In this document: one piece after another, positions 24,574 through 35,481 of the stretch
Position numbering within the stretch: position 1 is the stretch's first letter
How the letters are laid out: each line of letters starts with the position of its first letter
Assembly (NCBI GenBank): GCA_019428945.1
Contig: JAHYJM010000011.1
Coordinates: forward strand, 1 to 35,606
Length of the DNA stretch: 35,606 bases
From: Bacillota bacterium
GTDB taxonomy: Bacteria > Bacillota > Dethiobacteria > DTU022
Reading direction: 5' to 3'
The notes under the pieces: generated by a model
Told to the model about the DNA's origin: nothing
Database searches by the model: none
What the model saw: the letters and a program-made list of their open reading frames with translations, nothing else
Translations under genes and position numbers: made by a program

Positions 24574-26646
24574 TCAAAGCTTCCCACGCCTGAGCAGTTG
24601 CGCATTAAGGGCAACAATAACAGTGCTGGCAGACATTACGACTGCTCCCAGAGCCATAGGCATAACAAATCCGAAAGGTGCAAGGACTCCTGCCGCGAGT
24701 GGAATAGCCAGCAGGTTATAACCTGTTGCCCAGGCCAGGTTTTGAATCATTTTACTATAAACCCTTTTTGAAAGAGTAATTAAACGGACAACATCACGCG
24801 GATCGTTTTTGACCAGGATAATTCCTGCCGATTCAACAGCCACATCTGTTCCGGCTCCGATAGCCAGCCCGATGTCAGCTAGAACAAGGGCAGGAGCATC
24901 GTTAACGCCATCCCCTACCATGGCAACTGTGTAACCGTCTCCTTTTAGCTTTTCAATAATTTCGGCCTTGTTTTCCGGCAAAATTTCAGCGTAAACATCC
25001 GAAATTTCCAACTCTTTAGCTGCACTTTCTGCTGCTTCCCTGCTGTCACCAGTGAGTATTACAACCTTTATACCAGACTGTTGAAGTTCTTTAACTGCTT
25101 CCAGCGATTCCGGACGAACCCTATCACTAAAAGAAAGGTAGCCGGCAATATGGTTATCAGCAATAATGTACACCAATCCATGACCGCTTTTAGCAGCTTC
25201 TTCATCAATAACCGATATATCCTCACGCGTGTCTGTCAGTTCAAGTTTTTCAAGCAGGTTGGGCCCACCGGCATATATAGTTTTTCCTTCAATGACAGCC
25301 TTGATGCCACGGCCGGGCAAAGCAGTAAAAGAATCTGAATCAGGCAGGTTCAAATTACGGTTTTTCGCTTCTTTGACAATTGACTGGGCAATGCTGTGTT
25401 CTGAGTCTTTCTCTGCAGATGCCGCCAGTCGGAGCAGCTCGTCTTCACTGAGTGTTTTATCCAAAGATTTTATGCCGGCCAGACCCAGTTCGCCACTGGT
25501 TAAAGTACCGGTTTTATCAAAGACAACACAATTTACCAGGCGTGCTTTTTCAAGAGCCAGGCGATCTTTAACCAGTAAGCCATTTCGGGCGGCAATGGTA
25601 GTTGAAATGGCTATAACCAGGGGAATAGCCAAACCAAGGGCATGGGGGCAGGCAATAACAAGCACAGTTACTACACGTTCCATAATAAAGACCGACCCGG
25701 CCCCGAACAACACCCAAACGAAAGCAGTGATCAGGGCTGCGCTTAGAGCAATAATCGTCAGGTAAAAAGCAGCCCTGTCAGCAAGGATCTGAGTTCGTGA
25801 ACGAGATGTCTGCGCTTTTTCAACAAGGCGCATAATCCCGGCCAGAACAGTATCACCGGCCGTTTCCTGCACCTCGACACGCAGAGAGCCGTCTTCGTTA
25901 AGTGAACCGGCAATAACATGATCTCCGGTTTTTTTCGGGATTGGCCTTGACTCACCGGTTATTACTGCCTCATTAACATATGATTCCCCGCGGATTACTT
26001 TTCCATCAGCTGGCAAACTGCTACCCGGTCTTACAAGCACTACATCTCCGGGTTTAAGACTATCAACAGATACTTCTTCCTCACCGTCAGCGGTAATGAC
26101 TACTGCAGTATCGGGGATTAGCTTTGCCAGTTCCTGTAAAGCTCCATGAGCCCTGGTAACAGCATTCATTTCTATCCAGTGGCCCAGAAGCATAATCGTA
26201 ACAAGTGTGGCTAACTCCCAGAATATCTCTTCCCCGGGTAGGCCAAATGTTACCAGAACACTGTATATATAGGCAACCGATATGGCTAAACTAATCAGGG
26301 TCATCATTCCCGGACGGCGTGTCTTCAATTCATTTACAGCACTGTTGATAAAAACGATTCCGCCGTAAAAAAAGATCACTGTACTAAAAATAAAAGGGAT
26401 TAATTGAGAACCGGGAAACTGGGGAGGATGAAAGTTGAACCATTGTTGAATATGGTGGCTGTAGATTAAAACCGGAACTGTAAGAACAAGGGATAGCCAG
26501 AAGCGCTTTTTAAACATGTCAGGAGAGTGGGCGCTGTGCCCGGCATGATTTGAATGATTAGCATGTTCAGAAGTTCCGGCACCTACGTCCGCCTGGCTGT
26601 TGTGCATGCTATTATCTTCAGAATGATGGTGTTCACTATTTTTCAT
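24574..26646 (-). CDS. copB: CopB-type copper-transporting P1B-ATPase
   Basis: The 690-residue protein has a His-rich N-terminal tail (about 25% His or polar in the first 45 residues) instead of a CxxC metal-binding domain, then eight membrane helices. The ion-path motif is CPHALGLA (CPH, group P1B-3), the phosphorylation site is DKTGTLTSG, and the hinge is MVGDGVNDAPAL; a TGES actuator loop is seen as VITGESRP. The CPH and His-rich tail indicate copper export, as in CopB of Enterococcus and Archaeoglobus. ATG 26646 has AAGGAGG upstream. The truncated flavoprotein follows in the same direction. No copper chaperone or CopY gene is adjacent. Confidence 0.92.
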   Translation of the reverse strand: MKNSEHHHSEDNSMHNSQADVGAGTSEHANHSNHAGHSAHSPDMFKKRFWLSLVLTVPVLIYSHHIQQWFNFHPPQFPGSQLIPFIFSTVIFFYGGIVFINSAVNELKTRRPGMMTLISLAISVAYIYSVLVTFGLPGEEIFWELATLVTIMLLGHWIEMNAVTRAHGALQELAKLIPDTAVVITADGEEEVSVDSLKPGDVVLVRPGSSLPADGKVIRGESYVNEAVITGESRPIPKKTGDHVIAGSLNEDGSLRVEVQETAGDTVLAGIMRLVEKAQTSRSRTQILADRAAFYLTIIALSAALITAFVWVLFGAGSVFIMERVVTVLVIACPHALGLAIPLVIAISTTIAARNGLLVKDRLALEKARLVNCVVFDKTGTLTSGELGLAGIKSLDKTLSEDELLRLAASAEKDSEHSIAQSIVKEAKNRNLNLPDSDSFTALPGRGIKAVIEGKTIYAGGPNLLEKLELTDTREDISVIDEEAAKSGHGLVYIIADNHIAGYLSFSDRVRPESLEAVKELQQSGIKVVILTGDSREAAESAAKELEISDVYAEILPENKAEIIEKLKGDGYTVAMVGDGVNDAPALVLADIGLAIGAGTDVAVESAGIILVKNDPRDVVRLITLSKRVYSKMIQNLAWATGYNLLAIPLAAGVLAPFGFVMPMALGAVVMSASTVIVALNAQLLRRGKL

Positions 26647-27842: not shown

Positions 27843-28643
27843 TCAGATATTTTTAGTTGCCAATACCTCTTTGGCTGGTGTTCTGTTGCCGTTACAGCTG
27901 ATCAAGCGTGGCGCATTCATAAACTTGAGTTCAAAACCTAACCCACTATACAGTTCAATAATCCGCTCTGTTGCCTGGTTGGAGAGGACAACCGGTCCGG
28001 GATGACAAGCTAGCCAGTTTGCCAATCGCACCTGATCGTCCCATACAAACCCTTCCTTAGAATAGTGAGTAAAATTTACGTCGTAAGGCGGATCGGCATA
28101 TATAAAATCAGCTGGCTTCAGGGAGAGCAGTTCAAAATCTACAGATTCAAATTTCCATTGCAGAAATTGGTGGCGATAATGCTTGAAATCTTGGATATAA
28201 TTTATTTTCTTGTAACTGCCAAAGGGCACATTGAACTCACCTTTTTTATTAAACCGGCAGAGTCCGTTGTAACCGGTTCGGTTAAGGTAATAAAATAGCT
28301 CAGCAGCCTCTGCGGTCTCCTCCCTGCCTTCCCGGATCAGCCTGTTGAACCGATCTCTGTAACTGTAATAGAAGTCCTCATTATTTTCCATAGAGAGCTG
28401 CAGCTGTAATCCTTTACTGATTGAGCGGAAAAAATTAATCAGATGAATGTTTATGTCATTTAACAGGGCTTCATCAGGCATCAACCCCAGGGTTATTGCA
28501 AGGCTTCCACATAAAGGTTCGACAAGACGACGCCCGGAATGTAAAGCCCAGAGCGTTTTAAGGTAAGGCACAAGCCACCTTTTACCCCCCGCCCATTTAA
28601 GCGGCGGTCTTAAGATACCGCTCTGTACCGGTGAAATAGTCAT
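27843..28643 (-). CDS. dam: DNA adenine-N6 methyltransferase, Dam type (class D12)
   Basis: The 266-residue protein has the D12 layout: AdoMet-binding PPLKWAGGKRWLVPYL (motif X/I) near the start, VEPLCGSLAITLGL (motif I), LNDINIHLINFF, and the catalytic DPPY in FIYADPPYDVNFTHYS (about residue 195). No restriction enzyme gene is adjacent, so it is an orphan methylase. Its target could be GATC, as for E. coli Dam, but this is not evident from sequence alone. ATG 28643 has TTGGAG upstream. It is divergent from the hgc operon and convergent with cysE. Confidence 0.92.
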   Translation of the reverse strand: MTISPVQSGILRPPLKWAGGKRWLVPYLKTLWALHSGRRLVEPLCGSLAITLGLMPDEALLNDINIHLINFFRSISKGLQLQLSMENNEDFYYSYRDRFNRLIREGREETAEAAELFYYLNRTGYNGLCRFNKKGEFNVPFGSYKKINYIQDFKHYRHQFLQWKFESVDFELLSLKPADFIYADPPYDVNFTHYSKEGFVWDDQVRLANWLACHPGPVVLSNQATERIIELYSGLGFELKFMNAPRLISCNGNRTPAKEVLATKNI

Positions 28644-28770
28644 TATTAATCTCCAAGTCGATCATAATAGAGAAACTTTCAACCAAACCTCACCGGTTTC
28701 CTGCACAAAGGCTGGAAAAGTATTCTTCAGCAGAAATATGCTTCGAGCATGATTAATTTCATGATGGCTG

Positions 28771-28799
28771 TTGACATCTATAAATATTAGTTGTAAAAT
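28771..28799 (+). promoter_or_regulatory. Promoter of the marR-hgcAB operon
   Basis: TTGACA (28771-28776) and TAAAAT (28794-28799) are separated by exactly 17 nt. Transcription would begin about 38 nt before the marR ATG at 28845. The -10 lies inside a dyad that may be the operator. Confidence 0.65.
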
Positions 28800-28803
28800 A
28801 CAA
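28791..28803. promoter_or_regulatory. Candidate MarR operator overlapping the -10 box
   Basis: TTGTA-AAA-TACAA is a perfect 5-bp dyad spaced by 3, covering the -10 hexamer; an overlapping 8-bp palindrome ACAATTGT follows at 28800-28807. MarR proteins usually bind such short palindromes and block RNA polymerase, often at their own promoter. No binding data; assignment is by position only. Confidence 0.4.
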
Positions 28804-28844
28804 TTGTTGCACATATCACTTATTATTTCTGGGAGATTATCTGC

Positions 28845-29309
28845 ATGAAGTCTGAAGAATTAAGTCATTTCCGTGACATTCTGCGCCAAATGCAGCGCAG
28901 CCTGGGATGGTTGGCAAAAAGTGATGCCGCTTGCTGTGGGGTTACAGTTTCCCAATGCCATGCCTTGCTGGAAATAGGAAAAACCGGCACCATAACTCTT
29001 ATTGACCTGGCTGCAGCTCTTGCCCTGGATACCAGTACAATCAGCCGCACTGTAGACAGCATGGTCAAAGATGATCTCGTTGAGCGTAAAGCAGATCCCG
29101 ATGATCGCCGTTACCTTAGGCTGACTCTGACAAAAAAAGGCCAAAACATATATGATGAAATTAATTGCACCTTTAATCTTTACTATAAAGAAATATTTAC
29201 AGGTATACCTGAAGATAAACATGCTGCAATAATCGAGAGTATCGAAATTCTGACAAATGCGCTAACAGATAAAAATAATGTTTGCTGCCGGGAGGAATTA
29301 CATAAATGA
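28845..29309 (+). CDS. MarR-family transcriptional regulator, coupled to hgcA
   Basis: The 154-residue protein has the MarR winged helix: ITLIDLAAALALDTSTISRTVDSMV as recognition part and the wing RKADPDDRRYLRLTLTKKG. Unusual are the cysteines: C30-C31 followed by C38 (DAACCGVTVSQC) ahead of the DNA-binding domain, and C147-C148 near the C-terminus. They could bind thiophilic metals such as Hg(II) or As(III) (inference). It starts at ATG 28845 with GGGAG upstream. Its stop overlaps the hgcA start by 4 bp (ATGA), so the regulator and hgcAB are one operon. It probably controls mercury methylation and its own expression from the promoter at 28771-28799. Confidence 0.9.
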   Translation: MKSEELSHFRDILRQMQRSLGWLAKSDAACCGVTVSQCHALLEIGKTGTITLIDLAAALALDTSTISRTVDSMVKDDLVERKADPDDRRYLRLTLTKKGQNIYDEINCTFNLYYKEIFTGIPEDKHAAIIESIEILTNALTDKNNVCCREELHK

Positions 29310-30445
29310 GTGCTGAGTCGAAAAAACTGCCGATGGCCGGTGATCTCCATGAAACTGAATGTTGTACTGTAAAAGAAGTAACAGCTGCTTATGCAGATCC
29401 CGGTGATGCCAATTGGGTCAAAGGAGAATTTGAAACCGCGATCGGACCTGTTCACAGGATTGCCACAACCCTTGACAGACAGGATCTCACCGGATCTGTT
29501 AAAGCGCGCTGGGGAGTTGGCCGGATGAATTATTCAGTTGCCCCCGGTCTTTATGCCGTCGGAAATCCTAATCACTTATCTGCCGTTTTGGTCTCCGCCA
29601 ACTATAAACTCAGCTTTGATTACCTGCGCCGGGAACTGGACGGGTTAGACTTGTGGATATTAGTGTTGGATACGCAAGGCATCAATGTTTGGTGCGCCGC
29701 CGGTAAAGGCAGCTTCGGAACAGCAGAATTAATCCGGATGGTTCATCAATCGCGGTTAGGCGAATTAATATCGCATCGCACCCTGGTTTTACCTCAGCTT
29801 GCCGCTCCGGGAGTTTCCGCTCACCAGGTCCGTAAGGAAATTGGTTATAAAGTGGTCTACGGACCGGTACGGGCAGCAGATATTCCTGCATTTTTAAACA
29901 CCGGGAATAAGGCAGACCGGACAATGCGTCATCCAAGCTTTAACCTCTTCGATCGCCTCACCCTGACTCCGATCGAATTGGCTGCTCTTTTCAAACCAGT
30001 ATTGCTCCTGACTGTATTCCTTTTCCTGCTCAATCTGTTATCACAGCTTTTAAGCGGTGGCAATTTTATACCAACTTTATTGCTGGAGCAGACTTTTTCT
30101 GATCTCGCTCCGTTTATAATCAGCGCTCTGATCGGAACAATTCTTGTTCCTGCTCTTTTACCCTACATCCCCGGACGTGCTCTTGCCTGGAAAGGCTGGG
30201 TGCTGGGAATAGCCTGGGCTTTGATCTATACCACGATCATTGCAGCCCCTGCAGGTTGGCTGCAGACAACGGCCTACTTTTTAACCTTACCGGTAATTCC
30301 AGCATTTTTAGGCATGAACTATACCGGCTCAACAACCTATACGTCACTATCCGGAGTAGTCAAAGAGATGAATTATGCTTTGCCGCTGATTATTATTTCA
30401 GCCTCTCTGGGTCTGACTGCTTTAATCGGGACCTATTTCATATAG
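29306..30445 (+). CDS. hgcA: Mercury methylation corrinoid protein HgcA
   Basis: The 379-residue protein contains the diagnostic cap-helix motif NVWCAAGKG (N127-G135), where C130 is the lower ligand to cobalt of the corrinoid. Around it are VKARWGVGRMNYSVAPGLYA, GNPNHLSAVLVSANYKLSFD and VSAHQVRKEIGYKVVYGPVR, all typical for HgcA. After a linker, about five membrane helices (residues 228-378) anchor it in the cytoplasmic membrane, also as expected. HgcA transfers a methyl group to Hg(II), giving methylmercury, after methylation of its corrinoid in C1 metabolism. An N-terminal extension carries C19-C20, a vicinal pair whose presence in other HgcA I cannot check. It is coupled to the MarR gene and followed 40 bp later by hgcB. 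Confidence 0.96.
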   Translation: MSAESKKLPMAGDLHETECCTVKEVTAAYADPGDANWVKGEFETAIGPVHRIATTLDRQDLTGSVKARWGVGRMNYSVAPGLYAVGNPNHLSAVLVSANYKLSFDYLRRELDGLDLWILVLDTQGINVWCAAGKGSFGTAELIRMVHQSRLGELISHRTLVLPQLAAPGVSAHQVRKEIGYKVVYGPVRAADIPAFLNTGNKADRTMRHPSFNLFDRLTLTPIELAALFKPVLLLTVFLFLLNLLSQLLSGGNFIPTLLLEQTFSDLAPFIISALIGTILVPALLPYIPGRALAWKGWVLGIAWALIYTTIIAAPAGWLQTTAYFLTLPVIPAFLGMNYTGSTTYTSLSGVVKEMNYALPLIIISASLGLTALIGTYFI

Positions 30446-30485
30446 ATAGTGTCCCTGAAAATTATTAAATGGTTTGGGAGTGTTA

Positions 30486-30797
30486 ATGATGAAATTCAGA
30501 TACTTAAAAAATGTTGTCACACTCAGGTTGGATCAAAGTAAATGTAACGGCTGCGGAATGTGCACAGAAGTCTGCCCACAACAGGTCTATACCATAAAAG
30601 ACAAGATGAGCCATATCACAGATCGCGATGCCTGTCTTGAATGCAGCGCCTGCGCAAGAAATTGCCCTCAACAGGCCATCTATGTTCGTCAGGGTGTAGG
30701 CTGCGCATATGCTGTGCTGATGGACAAACTAAATATTAAAGGCAAATGCTGTGGCGATGCCTGCGGCTGTAGCCTGGATAATATTCCTGAACACTAA
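30486..30797 (+). CDS. hgcB: Mercury methylation ferredoxin HgcB
   Basis: The 103-residue protein starts at ATG 30486 or 30489 (GGGAG 5 or 8 nt upstream; an in-frame TTG at 30474 is less likely). Two ferredoxin motifs are clear: C20-x2-C23-x2-C26-x3-C30 and C50-x2-C53-x2-C56-x3-C60, which bind two [4Fe-4S] clusters. Then comes the HgcB-specific QGVGCA, with C73, and a C-terminal tail with C88-C89, C93 and C95 (GKCCGDACGC). HgcB reduces the HgcA corrinoid and its tail cysteines are thought to hand Hg(II) to HgcA. The four-Cys tail has more cysteines than the vicinal pair I know for the family. Position directly after hgcA confirms the pair. Confidence 0.96.
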   Translation: MMKFRYLKNVVTLRLDQSKCNGCGMCTEVCPQQVYTIKDKMSHITDRDACLECSACARNCPQQAIYVRQGVGCAYAVLMDKLNIKGKCCGDACGCSLDNIPEH

Positions 30798-31006: not shown

Positions 31007-31447
31007 ATGAAAGGATATTCTTTGGGCGGTTACAAACCAGGCAAACCGGGGCTGGAAAAAGTGTTAGGCAGCCTGGAAAATGAGGTAATGGAGATCATCT
31101 GGAAAAAAAACTGCGAAGTATCTGTTCGCGATGTCCTTGATGCCCTCACTAAGCGTCGTGATTTAGCCTACACTACAGTTATGACAATAATGGGTCGTCT
31201 TGAAGAGAAAAATATCCTTGAAAAACGCAAAGTTGGAAATGCATTTATTTTTAAACCCGTCTTGTCGCGTGAAGAATTCACCGGACAGGTTGTCGGTGGC
31301 CTGATAGACGATCTTCTAAATGATTTTAGCGATACTGCCATGAGTCATTTCATACGAAGGGTAGAGGAAAAGGATCGTTCTGTTCTGGAAAAACTTGAAA
31401 AATCTCTTACCGAGAATAAGGAGTCTGAGGATGACAGCAATATTTAA
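31007..31447 (+). CDS. BlaI/MecI/CopY-family transcriptional repressor
   Basis: The 146-residue protein has the Penicillinase_R winged helix: LGSLENEVMEIIWKKN, VSVRDVLDAL and AYTTVMTIMGRLEEKNIL, then a C-terminal dimerisation helix pair. It is longer by about 15 residues at the N-terminus (Gly-rich MKGYSLGGYKPGKPG) than BlaI of Bacillus. ATG 31007 has GGAGGG upstream. The end overlaps the M56 peptidase gene by 17 bp, the classic blaI-blaR arrangement. The repressor would bind the dyad at 30970-30992 and be inactivated by proteolysis triggered through the peptidase. It may also act on the dyad before the DUF2318 gene. Confidence 0.92.
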   Translation: MKGYSLGGYKPGKPGLEKVLGSLENEVMEIIWKKNCEVSVRDVLDALTKRRDLAYTTVMTIMGRLEEKNILEKRKVGNAFIFKPVLSREEFTGQVVGGLIDDLLNDFSDTAMSHFIRRVEEKDRSVLEKLEKSLTENKESEDDSNI

Positions 31448-32405
31448 CGAAGCACACAGCCTGATCCTCTATATTATTTTCGGTTACTCGATCCTGTTAC
31501 CGCTTACTATGGTCAGCATGAAACTTTTACGCATTACCGACCCTTTGCAGCGTTTGCGACTATACCTGGTTGCTTTTCTAACACCACCTGCTGCATTTAT
31601 CCTTTATCATTCAGTCTTGGTAAAGCGCTGCGAATCAGGTCTGACACCAGTTTGGGCTGAAGGAGCATTTCATTTTCTCTGCGCAATTTCTGAAAATATG
31701 CTTAGTCTGTTTCTTCCACTACTCAGTTTAATGATAATCTTTGCTGCTATTAAGGCTTGTGTTGCTTTAATAATGATAAAGCGTATTGAACAAAACGCAC
31801 CCGGGATAGATAAAAATATCGATGAAAATATTAGATCTATTGTCACAGACATAAGTAGAATAATAAACATTACACCACCAAAAGTTATTTACAGCAGCCG
31901 TGAAGATTTCGCAGCTTTTACTACAGGTTTTTTAAAACCTGTATTGGTAATTAACCACAAAATACCCTCAATCTTGAGCGAAAGCCAATTGGGAGCCTTG
32001 ATAGGCCACGAACTGTTTCATGTTCTGCAAAGAGATCCACTCAAGAACTGGGTTTTACACCTTCTCAGAGATATTACCCTGCTGAATCCTTTAAGTGCAT
32101 TACTGCTAAAAGGGTACCTGTTAGAGAAAGAAATGATCTGCGATCGAAAAGCAGCATTGATAGCAGGGATTTCTACCAAAGAATATGCTGCTTTACTTCT
32201 AAAAGTGTGGAGAACAGTGCTGGATTATAATACTCCAAGTGTTTTTCCGGCAAGTAGTTTTACCGGATACTGGGGTATGGAGCGCCGGGTCGGTGCATTA
32301 CTAAACAACAACCAGGAAATTTACAGGCATTCAAAACTGTCAGCTACGTTTCTTGGCATCGCAATATTCGTTTCAACAATGGTATTTCTTGGCCTTGTCT
32401 GTTAA
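31431..32405 (+). CDS. M56-family (BlaR1-like) membrane metallopeptidase without sensor domain
   Basis: The 324-residue protein starts at ATG 31431, with AAGGAG 8 nt upstream. It has about three N-terminal membrane helices, a cytoplasmic loop with the zinc motif GHELFHVLQRD (HELFH, residues 193-197) and the third ligand region LEKEMICDRKA, and a last helix at the very C-terminus. BlaR1 has in addition an extracellular penicillin-binding domain after that last helix; here the protein ends, so it does not sense beta-lactams through such a domain. The input may come from a partner protein. It would cleave or trigger cleavage of the neighbouring BlaI repressor. Confidence 0.9.
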   Translation: MTAIFNEAHSLILYIIFGYSILLPLTMVSMKLLRITDPLQRLRLYLVAFLTPPAAFILYHSVLVKRCESGLTPVWAEGAFHFLCAISENMLSLFLPLLSLMIIFAAIKACVALIMIKRIEQNAPGIDKNIDENIRSIVTDISRIINITPPKVIYSSREDFAAFTTGFLKPVLVINHKIPSILSESQLGALIGHELFHVLQRDPLKNWVLHLLRDITLLNPLSALLLKGYLLEKEMICDRKAALIAGISTKEYAALLLKVWRTVLDYNTPSVFPASSFTGYWGMERRVGALLNNNQEIYRHSKLSATFLGIAIFVSTMVFLGLVC

Positions 32406-32428
32406 AGGGAAAATTTTTTACATAGATA

Positions 32429-32442
32429 TACTACACGTAGTA
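32429..32442. promoter_or_regulatory. BlaI/MecI-type dyad ahead of the DUF2318 gene
   Basis: TACTAC-AC-GTAGTA is a perfect 6-bp dyad. It is strongly reminiscent of the MecI/BlaI operator core, which has TACTAC and GTAGTA arms with a 4-bp spacer; here the spacer is 2 bp. It lies 24 bp after the M56 gene stop and just before the ribosome site of the DUF2318 gene, so the downstream transporter genes may be under the same repressor. A TATACT hexamer overlaps it. Confidence 0.5.
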
Positions 32443-32468
32443 GTAGATATGGGAGGTTTTATAACAAA

Positions 32469-33068
32469 ATGACAGGTAATAAGATTAACGAAATCGATAA
32501 GAAAGAACAGTTTACAAAGAGAGCCAGCAATAAGTTGCCCATAATTATGGCAATAGTTGCCATTGCAGCGGTTATGATTTTCGGTGCGATGCTGTTATTC
32601 AATGATTCAAATGAACAGGCTATTGTTTCACCTTTTGGGGAACCGACAGCTAAAACAAGATCGTACATGGGCAAAGTTGTCTCAATGACAATTGTAGAGC
32701 CGGTTATAAGCACTACCCTGGCCGGTATCCCCCTGGAACAGCTTGAGAAAAATGATATTGTCTATTTCGAAGTGGAAAATTCCGATGGTCTTATGGTTCC
32801 CCTGATGGCATACATCACTCCGACAGGTCGAATTTTCACCGGCAGCAGCATGTGTGAACCATGCCAGGGAAGATATTTCTCACTGGCCGGAGAAACGCTA
32901 GTCTGTGACACTTGCCGAACCACATACACCATTGAAAGCCATGAATTTATTTCAGGCTCTGTTACATGCGGCGCTTATCCCCCGGTTTACATGGAACCGG
33001 TTATTGACAATAAGATGGTCAGCATCCCCCTTGAAGATATTTTTCAATGGAAAACAAGGGTATATTAG
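32469..33068 (+). CDS. DUF2318-type membrane-anchored Cys-rich (Fe-S-like) protein
   Basis: The 199-residue protein has a single N-terminal membrane helix (residues 23-43) and an outside domain with C129-x2-C132, C146-x2-C149 and C167 in the order SMCEPCQGRYF, LVCDTCRTTY and VTCGAYPP. This matches the C-terminal, metal- or cluster-binding part of DUF2318/FtrD-like proteins. In Campylobacter and enteric FTR1/P19 iron-import clusters a DUF2318 protein stands next to FtsX-like ABC permeases, as here (established family context). The role is probably electron transfer or metal handling at the outer face of the membrane. The ribosome site GGGAGG lies a little far (12 nt) from the ATG. Confidence 0.75.
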   Translation: MTGNKINEIDKKEQFTKRASNKLPIIMAIVAIAAVMIFGAMLLFNDSNEQAIVSPFGEPTAKTRSYMGKVVSMTIVEPVISTTLAGIPLEQLEKNDIVYFEVENSDGLMVPLMAYITPTGRIFTGSSMCEPCQGRYFSLAGETLVCDTCRTTYTIESHEFISGSVTCGAYPPVYMEPVIDNKMVSIPLEDIFQWKTRVY

Positions 33069-33091
33069 GGTTTATTAAGGAGGCCAATTTA

Positions 33092-33502
33092 ATGACTGAA
33101 AATAATGTTTCAAATAATGACAACAGTACTGGTAAAAACAAGACGCCCAAACAAAAGATCTTCAGCAAACTGATATTGAGCACATTAATTGTTGTGGCTG
33201 CTCTGACGATTTTAATAATGGTTAACAATCAGCTATCGGCACGCACATCCTCATCACTAAATAATAATCCGGTATTTGCAGGAGGTTCCTGCTGCAGAAC
33301 CGGTAACAGTACGGCCGGCGGTGAAAACCAACTGGCAATTAGCGCACTTAACTACTACAGGGATAATTACGAAGAAACTGAAGGACTTACTGCAAGAGTG
33401 GATGATTTCGGTTGTCATCAGGAAATCAGTATCTCCCGCAACGGGATAGAAGTCAGGCGATTTGGATTCAGCAATGGAACATTTTATGAAATCACTCCTT
33501 AA
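33092..33502 (+). CDS. Small membrane protein with vicinal Cys pair, unknown family
   Basis: The 136-residue protein begins at ATG 33092, after AAGGAGG; a longer frame to 33047 overlaps the preceding gene and is less likely. It has one membrane helix (about 25-45), then FAGGSCCRTGNS with C67-C68, and DDFGCHQE with C108 in a small domain that ends FYEITP. The three cysteines and His109 could bind a metal on the outside of the cell. I do not recognise the family. It lies between the DUF2318 gene and the FtsX-like permease in one direction and probably belongs to the same transport system. Confidence 0.7.
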   Translation: MTENNVSNNDNSTGKNKTPKQKIFSKLILSTLIVVAALTILIMVNNQLSARTSSSLNNNPVFAGGSCCRTGNSTAGGENQLAISALNYYRDNYEETEGLTARVDDFGCHQEISISRNGIEVRRFGFSNGTFYEITP

Positions 33503-33523
33503 TAAAATCGTGAGGGACAAAAT

Positions 33524-34723
33524 ATGAACCTTTACTCAATTGCTCTAAATAATATTGCCCGGCGGAAAAAGAGGATGCTTCTAATTCTATTTGGACTAAT
33601 GACTGGAATTGCCATTACAGTGGCTCTTTTCATGATAGTTGAATCAATGCGCCTGGCATTAGGGGATCAAATTGATGAATTCGGAGCTAATATAGTGATA
33701 GTGCCACGTGCCGAAGGAATGGATATAAGCTATGGCGGTACAAATGTTACCAGGGCTTCTGTTGATATAAACCAGTTAACTGAATCGGATCTGGAGTTAA
33801 TCAGTACTATTCCGGATTATAACAGTATTAATCTGATTTCACCAAAATTAGTTGCAGCTGTGTCAGCTAATGATCGTGATGTTATACTCGTTGGAGTACA
33901 ACCCGAACGTGAATTTATCATGAAACCATGGTTTTCACTAAGCGATCAGGCCGGACTTCCCGCCGGGGCATCTCCGGATGATCTGGCTCTGATCAAGCTT
34001 GCTGAAAATAGCTTAATTGCCGGTGCTGATACAGCCCGCAAACTAATGCTTGAAGCAGGCGACGAAGTAATTGTAAACGGCACCTTATTTATTATTGCTG
34101 CTGTAATCAGCCCTCTTGGCTCTGTGGAAGATGGTCTGCTTTACGGAAATCTTGATGCGGTTCAGAACCTGCTCGGCAGACAGGGAGAGATCTCAATGAT
34201 CGAAATCTCTGCATACTGCAACACCTGCCCCATTGAGGATATAGCCGCTCAGCTGAGTGAAGCAATTCCTGGCGGAAGAGTTACAGCATTACGCCAGGCT
34301 GCATTGCTCAGAGAAGAAACTATTAATAAATTCTCAACTTTTTCCATCCTTATCTCTACGGTGGTTCTGATCATTGCTGCGCTGCTGGTTTTAACCACGA
34401 CGATGGCCTCGGTTCATGAACGTACCCGTGAAATAGGCATTTTCAGGGCAATAGGCTTTCGCGGCAGCAATGTGTTGACAGTTATCTTACTTGAAGCTGG
34501 AATAACAGGTTTATCAGGTGGAATTATCGGTTATGTCGTGGGCAGTATCATAGCCCTGAATTTTGGTTCATATCTTACCGGGAATAATATTCCGGTTTTC
34601 TGGCAAGCTAATCTAATTGCCCCTGCAATGCTGCTTGCTTTGTTAATAACTATAACTGCAGCAGCTTATCCTGCATACAGGGCTGCCAGCCTGGACCCGG
34701 CAGAAGCGCTGCGATTTATCTAA
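33524..34723 (+). CDS. FtsX/MacB-type ABC transporter permease
   Basis: The 399-residue protein has the MacB/FtsX topology: one helix near the N-terminus (18-40), a large outside domain (about 45-270) and three C-terminal helices with FSILISTVVLIIAALLVL, TREIGIFRAIGF (the coupling segment that contacts the ATPase) and DPAEALRF at the end. The periplasmic-type domain contains AYCNTCPIED, a CxxC that may bind metal or take part in redox chemistry. It is followed by its ATPase 14 bp later and by a second permease. By neighbourhood it resembles the Cj1661-Cj1663 / FetBCD type module that supports iron uptake. Confidence 0.88.
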   Translation: MNLYSIALNNIARRKKRMLLILFGLMTGIAITVALFMIVESMRLALGDQIDEFGANIVIVPRAEGMDISYGGTNVTRASVDINQLTESDLELISTIPDYNSINLISPKLVAAVSANDRDVILVGVQPEREFIMKPWFSLSDQAGLPAGASPDDLALIKLAENSLIAGADTARKLMLEAGDEVIVNGTLFIIAAVISPLGSVEDGLLYGNLDAVQNLLGRQGEISMIEISAYCNTCPIEDIAAQLSEAIPGGRVTALRQAALLREETINKFSTFSILISTVVLIIAALLVLTTTMASVHERTREIGIFRAIGFRGSNVLTVILLEAGITGLSGGIIGYVVGSIIALNFGSYLTGNNIPVFWQANLIAPAMLLALLITITAAAYPAYRAASLDPAEALRFI

Positions 34724-34737
34724 TCGGGAGGTTAATG

Positions 34738-35481
34738 ATGAAAAATATACTTATTAAAATAGATAAAATACGCAAAACATATAACTCCGGCAGCACAGCA
34801 GTTAATGCACTACAGGATATTTCACTGAATATATCCAGGGGAGAAGCTGCAGCAATTATGGGGCCCTCCGGTTCGGGGAAAAGTACTCTGCTCAGCATTA
34901 TCGGAGGGTTAAATCAACCAACAGAAGGAAAAATATTAATTGATGGTATCGATCTCTATTCTCTGTCGAGGGAAAAACGGGCAGATTTCCGCAGAGAATA
35001 TCTCGGCTTCGTTTTTCAGCAGTTCCAGCTGATACCATATCTGAACGCCCTGGAAAATGTTATGCTTCCACTTACGACAACCCGTTACACATCAAAACAG
35101 AAACGTGATATGGCCACGCACGCCCTGCACCGGGTCAATATGGATACAAAAGCAAATCGATTGCCCAACCAGCTTTCAGGAGGAGAACAGGAGAGAATAG
35201 CGATAGCCAGAGCTGTTGTAAACGAACCGCCTTTAATATTAGCCGATGAGCCTACAGGCAGTCTGGATACAAAAACTTCGGAAGAGATTATGGGTCTCTT
35301 CAGAAATTTGAATGAAAGCGGGCTGACCCTGTTAATGGTTACCCATAATCCAGAGAATACAGCTTACATGAACCGCACCATCACTATGCAGGACGGTATG
35401 CTGATTAGCGGTAGAAAAAACACTATAGCAACAAACTCTTTACCATTTTCCATTAATGAAAGCGCTGGTGTTACAAGATGA
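34738..35481 (+). CDS. LolD/MacB-type ABC transporter ATP-binding protein
   Basis: The 247-residue protein starts at ATG 34738 (or 34735; GGGAGG is 6 or 3 nt upstream). It carries Walker A GPSGSGKST, Q-loop VFQQFQLIPYLNA, signature LSGGEQERIAIARA, Walker B LILADEPTGSLD and the switch His in MVTHNPE. The sequence is typical of the MacB/LolD group that works with FtsX-type permeases, coupling ATP hydrolysis to conformational work rather than classic import. A C-terminal tail of about 25 residues has no known function. It overlaps the next permease gene by 4 bp (ATGA). Confidence 0.94.
   Translation: MKNILIKIDKIRKTYNSGSTAVNALQDISLNISRGEAAAIMGPSGSGKSTLLSIIGGLNQPTEGKILIDGIDLYSLSREKRADFRREYLGFVFQQFQLIPYLNALENVMLPLTTTRYTSKQKRDMATHALHRVNMDTKANRLPNQLSGGEQERIAIARAVVNEPPLILADEPTGSLDTKTSEEIMGLFRNLNESGLTLLMVTHNPENTAYMNRTITMQDGMLISGRKNTIATNSLPFSINESAGVTR

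Follow-up and report, generated by a model that had tools for sequence, protein, structure and literature searches.

The window analysed here, a stretch of 35,606 nucleotides, corresponds to contig 134 in the draft genome of an uncultured Bacillota bacterium; this assembly spans 2.36 Mb, with 98% completeness and 4.1% contamination. The window carries three consecutive genes, marR, hgcA and hgcB, all on the forward strand, the first two sharing 4 nt (ATGA), with a predicted promoter and operator ahead of them:

28771-28776, + strand: -35 element TTGACA from the promoter scan (11/12 matches, spacer 17)
28789-28805, no strand assigned: predicted MarR operator AGTTGTAAAATACAATT, covering the -10 element; perfect core TTGTA-AAA-TACAA at 28791-28803
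28794-28799, + strand: -10 element TAAAAT from the promoter scan, within the predicted operator
28845-29309, + strand: marR, MarR-family repressor of 154 aa with C30-C31-G, Q37-C38-H39 and C147-C148
28932-28937, + strand: codons of the vicinal pair C30-C31 (CCG[IV]T motif; C30 invariant in 19 aligned relatives)
28956-28958, + strand: codon of C38 (QCH motif)
29283-29288, + strand: codons of the C-terminal pair C147-C148
29306-30445, + strand: hgcA, corrinoid mercury methyltransferase of 379 aa (NF040863, 433.5 bits)
29693-29695, + strand: codon of HgcA C130, the predicted cobalt-ligand Cys within NVWCAAGK, invariant in 16 relatives
30489-30797, + strand: hgcB, two-cluster ferredoxin of 102 aa with C72 and a C-terminal CC...C.C tail; alternative starts at 30486 and 30474

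The initial annotation had described a complete hgcAB pair, on which the formation of toxic methylmercury depends, and both products indeed exceed the curated NCBIfam cut-offs. HgcA scores 433.5 bits against HgcA_corrinoid (NF040863, cut-off 275), the match extending over model positions 1-323 of 325, and HgcB scores 108.3 bits against HgcB_ferredoxin (NF040864, cut-off 99). The NVWCAAGKG motif singled out earlier is found in GINVWCAAGKGS, which contains C130; this stretch fits the N-[VI]-W-C-A-[AS]-G-K cap-helix pattern, with C130 at the invariant position of the predicted cobalt ligand. In a hydropathy scan HgcA displays four strong transmembrane segments, and a fifth (~320-342), below threshold, is recognized by homology only. 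The generic Pfam match of HgcA is CdhD, because the corrinoid domain is common to HgcA and CODH/ACS, and its sequence relatives in the PDB are corrinoid iron-sulfur proteins only. A second HgcA-like match in the host genome (C11) was rejected as another hgcA, since it reaches only 39.9 bits, is restricted to the corrinoid region and was assigned to the CODH/ACS type. An N-terminal extension (29306-29455) precedes the family model in HgcA, and its C19, invariant in 16 relatives, is possibly an extra metal ligand.

The two cluster motifs, the lone cysteine and the Cys tail ascribed to HgcB are likewise present, the residue first numbered C73 (from the ATG at 30486) being C72 when counted from the ATG at 30489. 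With the latter numbering, the cysteines are at 19/22/25/29, 49/52/55/59, 72, 87, 88, 92 and 94. Judged from the sequence, translation most likely starts at 30486/30489 rather than at the TTG at 30474, and 30489 was picked by alignment. The window genes share with ND132-type (Pseudodesulfovibrio mercurii) hgcAB the NVWCAAGK corrinoid motif, the C-terminal membrane domain, the two 4Fe-4S motifs, the lone Cys and the Cys tail, and differ in the 379-aa HgcA with its C19-bearing N-terminal extension and in the MarR that replaces the ArsR-like regulator. Purified HgcAB of ND132 methylates Hg with SAM, with a methylcobalamin intermediate and Co-thiolate ligation (PMC11588087). Methylmercury production by the host is a prediction made from a draft genome. 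The nearest named hgcA record is that of Bacillota MAG S22.Bin020 (78% identity), followed by those of two Syntrophomonadaceae MAGs.

The gene heading the operon, with the 4-bp overlap noted at the outset, encodes a true MarR fold of normal size. Its product scores 53.8 bits against Pfam PF01047 (cut-off 24.6), and its AlphaFold2 model (mean pLDDT 86) is matched by Foldseek to MarR, FabT and HpaR structures. The protein has cysteines at positions 30, 31, 38, 108, 147 and 148, which include the vicinal pairs mentioned in the initial annotation (C30-C31 and C147-C148), and it displays all the Cys features by which we delineated its subfamily, namely, CCG[IV]T, QCH (C38/H39) and the C-terminal pair. 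In fold and winged helix it is similar to redox-sensing MarRs (OhrR, MexR, E. coli MarR); the CCG..QCH..CC set is absent from the four outgroup MarRs compared. Among hgcA-linked MarRs (n=29), C30 is present in 29/29, and C31 and C38 in 20/29 each. The Syntrophales-type members keep C30 and the C-terminal Cys and lack C31 and C38, which makes a single common ligand site across the family uncertain.

Several other genes surround the operon. A Dam-type adenine methyltransferase (27843-28643, - strand) is divergent from marR, and a similar gene is found at this place in L011, a relative of the same genus, and in L013, a relative carrying hgcA without MarR. A P-type ATPase for heavy metals (copper-type), His-rich at its N-terminus, is encoded at 24574-26646 (- strand), some 2.2 kb away from the hgc operon. 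Downstream, a cluster at 31007-35481 encodes a BlaI/CopY-type repressor, an M56 (BlaR1-like) peptidase, an FtrD-like protein, a small Cys-containing protein, an FtsX/MacB permease and a LolD-like ATPase, and resembles an independently regulated unit for metals or envelope stress.

To assess how common this arrangement is, we considered 60 related genomes, 18 with hgcA (the host genome counted) and 42 without it, and the 80 named hgcA loci closest to the window HgcA, a similarity-ranked sample rather than a census. In the hgcA-positive relatives, the gene immediately upstream of hgcA encodes MarR in ten cases, ArsR in three and neither in five. In the named loci, MarR is found in 22, ArsR in 26, both in one and neither in 27, the remaining four being without upstream sequence. 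The window locus itself belongs to the MarR-only class, no gene upstream of its hgcA being assigned to ArsR/SmtB. The loci with MarR before hgcA (23/80) are distributed across several phyla, their carriers including Bacillota, Halanaerobiales, Atribacteria, Aminicenantes, Syntrophales-type Deltaproteobacteria and a spirochaete record. For two cultured methylators, Dethiobacter alkaliphilus and Geobacter daltonii, a gene of the MarR family ahead of hgcA has been noted as well, in a single sentence of a paper that mentions neither an operator nor a Cys motif nor any kinship to arsM (PMC10349881). The architecture taken as unusual in the initial annotation is therefore recurrent, and a unique MarR-hgcA arrangement can be ruled out. 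The accompanying statement that hgcAB is regulated mostly through ArsR-like proteins proved incomplete, since PrlF/AbrB-like and GntR genes, in addition to MarR genes, are also reported (PMC10349881). ArsR-type control of hgcAB with a response to arsenic is described for ND132 (PMC10349881). There, as in the window, a small HTH repressor gene lies upstream of hgcAB; the ND132 regulator is co-transcribed with hgcAB and tied to arsenic, but belongs to a protein family different from that of the window MarR (PMC10349881, PMC7438021).

When the 60 genomes were searched with the MarR profile (A3), ten proteins scored 223-247 bits, all of them encoded next to hgcA, and the remainder scored at most 66.5 bits. 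MarR is thus present in 10/18 hgcA-positive and 0/42 hgcA-negative genomes (Fisher p 5.8e-7, a value that ignores relatedness). A quick HgcA tree has 13 changes of the MarR label, at least seven of them forced by starred branches, which suggests that the regulator has been swapped repeatedly. Five hgcA-positive relatives (L008, L009, L010, L013 and L016) lack an operator as well as a nearby MarR or ArsR gene, and their hgcAB may be constitutive or otherwise controlled.

Upstream of most hgcA-linked marR genes we identified a 17-bp palindrome, AGTTGTATAATRCAACT. In the window it corresponds to 28789-28805, inside the region (28765-28812) initially suggested for binding assays, and it matches the consensus AGTTGTATAATACAACT at 15/17 positions. 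Scores of at least 13/17 against this consensus, which was drawn by eye from the hgcA-linked loci themselves, are found upstream of 23/28 hgcA-linked marR genes, compared to 0.7% of resampled sequences. The operator is absent from 16 hgcA loci without MarR, where the best scores (8-12) are shuffle-like. A stricter pattern yields nine distinct sites across the 60 genomes, seven of them at marR-hgcA promoters; two matches away from hgcA (L105, L111) lie in unrelated regions. The only exact site in the host genome is the one at the marR-hgcAB promoter. A wide MarR regulon there was rejected, since sites with up to three mismatches (22+18) are no commoner than in the reversed control (20+24). The palindrome is also phased with the promoter, a TTGACA-like -35 element being located 16-18 nt ahead of the operator's -10 at 17/23 hgcA-linked sites, compared to 13% of random positions. 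The simplest reading of this position is that the MarR would repress by masking the -10 box. In eight Syntrophales-type loci (L055, L069, L077, L083, L084, L085, L092 and L093) the operator/-10 directly precedes the marR ATG, always at -110 from the Cys codon, a fixed spacing that may leave the transcript with little or no leader. The proposal of the initial annotation that the MarR controls the operon hence gains comparative support from the conserved predicted operator on the promoter and from the exclusive co-occurrence, the control itself staying a prediction. Overall, the predicted operator and the putative repressor role are well supported by these comparisons.

A point absent from the initial annotation is the usual partner of this MarR subfamily. 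We searched 299 Bacillota genomes, drawn irrespective of neighbour genes, with a MarR profile built from hgcA-linked MarRs that had themselves been gathered via HgcA. Besides the window, 29 loci of the subfamily were examined, in which the adjacent gene is arsM (19 loci), a permease (4), hgcA (3), arsA (1), a GNAT gene (1) or an unidentified gene (1). All four arsM representatives checked against NCBIfam pass NF008823 (arsenite methyltransferase), and at 20 more distant MarR loci an arsM, hgcA or permease neighbour was found in 0/20. The four permease partners are weakly similar to SaoE / SO_0444-type efflux transporters, and the single locus with a GNAT partner has an ArsR gene nearby. At L131, the genes after a related marR encode a GNAT acetyltransferase, ArsN-like on visual inspection, and an ArsR protein. 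L136, L141 and L142 encode related MarRs without the CCG motif, with an N-terminal CC and a similar palindrome upstream; their neighbours are permeases with weak similarity to SaoE / SO_0444 efflux transporters.

C30, C31 and C38 are all present in 19/19 arsM-linked MarRs and in 0/4 outgroup MarRs, and the full set of C30-C31, C38 and the C-terminal pair is almost complete in the arsM-linked MarRs and the window clade. The MarRs preceding arsM in Bacillota belong to the same subfamily as the window MarR and share with it the CCG..QCH..CC set and a similar palindrome (at least 13/17 in 17/29 Bacillota loci of the subfamily, compared to 0/870 shuffles). They differ in having arsM as the partner and in that their palindrome, unlike that of the hgcA-linked set, is not phased with TTGACA (0/17). 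In the phylogenetic tree, the window MarR falls into a 15-row clade consisting entirely of hgcA-linked proteins (100/97), sister, with moderate support (87/86), to a 9-row clade consisting entirely of arsM-linked ones. Other hgcA-linked MarRs are found among the arsM-linked proteins, and arsM-, arsA-, permease- and hgcA-linked MarRs together form a 43-row clade (98/94) apart from the four outgroup MarRs. No arsM was found in the host genome, and none under the same MarR in its close relatives. Retention of the MarR for an arsM of the host can thus be ruled out, and it is the MarR family rather than the host organism that provides the link to arsenic. Because the subfamily usually precedes arsM, hgcAB here appears to be wired to a regulator of metal(loid) methylation. 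From sequence, the best reading of the window MarR is a metal(loid) sensor that works through thiols and represses its own gene; it would be of the arsM-associated type, putatively recruited to hgcAB more than once.

The genes and their overlap, the MarR membership, the conservation of cysteines and operator, the co-occurrence and the arsM-MarR kinship can be read directly from the sequences compared. On this basis, we consider it likely that the complete hgcAB operon is repressed by its own MarR on 28789-28805 and released by a thiophilic arsenical or Hg(II). In the absence of an inducer, a MarR dimer bound to the palindrome would cover the -10 box and keep RNA polymerase from transcribing marR-hgcA-hgcB. 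A thiophilic trivalent arsenical or Hg(II) would then bind the Cys cluster formed by C30-C31 and C38, possibly together with C147-C148, the ligand-bound dimer would leave the DNA, and marR-hgcA-hgcB would be transcribed. Finally, HgcA, with its corrinoid and Cys-ligated Co, and HgcB, with its two [4Fe-4S] clusters, would pass a methyl group to Hg(II). DNA binding, repression, ligand release and Hg methylation are steps that we infer, as is the ligand; the choice of trivalent arsenicals or Hg(II) as the inducer, deduced from gene partners and cysteines, is the least certain part. The arsM partners and the ArsR precedent speak for arsenicals, and the partner enzyme for Hg(II).

Redox-sensing cysteines are well known among MarR proteins, and the window MarR might instead repress marR-hgcAB while sensing thiol oxidation, O2 or reactive species, as OhrR and MexR do. 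Such sensing is possible: the oxygen sensitivity of HgcAB makes redox control plausible, and the nearest folds of the window MarR include MexR and AbfR. We nevertheless regard it as unlikely, because the partners in the Bacillota sample are arsM, arsA and efflux-type permeases, with redox genes absent, and because the combination of CC, QCH and terminal CC is closer to a soft-metal site than to a lone peroxidatic Cys. Somewhat less probable still is that the natural task of HgcAB is to methylate another soft metal(loid), e.g. arsenic, with methylmercury as a side product and the regulator type reflecting this. The regulator family common to arsM loci, the host genome without arsM and the arsenic-responsive ArsR control of hgcAB in other strains (PMC10349881) would fit such a task, but both Hgc proteins are full-length matches to the Hg-methylation equivalogs, the purified ND132 enzymes methylate Hg with SAM (PMC11588087), and we found no evidence of As methylation by HgcAB. 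That the MarR is a bystander or a general regulator, with hgcAB constitutive or otherwise controlled, is very improbable given the exclusive co-occurrence (10/18 versus 0/42), the marR-hgcA overlap and an operator present at MarR-linked promoters and absent from MarR-less hgcA loci, even though the five relatives without a regulator detected within ~0.9 kb suggest that regulation is dispensable in some organisms and the MarR adjacency changes at least seven times on the HgcA tree.

Repression by the MarR and its release by a soft metal(loid) thus remain our preferred reading. While hgcAB and the MarR-hgcA adjacency are already known, the conserved operator on the -10 box and the kinship with arsM-linked MarRs are, provisionally, new: in the literature searched, outside which most subscription papers lie, we found no published MarR-arsM link and no operator on the -10 of hgcA. 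In a broader scenario, for and against which the chances seem evenly balanced, a cross-phylum family of Cys-rich MarRs with one conserved operator controls both arsM and hgcAB and on several occasions has moved to hgcAB loci, alternating with ArsR. What induces hgcAB and what purpose it serves are questions of mercury biogeochemistry, on which the regulator bears. The precise predicted operator and the arsM-type repressor allow a direct test of induction by arsenicals or Hg(II) in Bacillota and Syntrophales, and would tie arsenic to mercury methylation by a second route, one without ArsR. If the cross-phylum scenario is true, hgcAB would count for the cells among the genes of a soft-metal(loid) response, and methylmercury production in these bacteria could be induced by arsenic.
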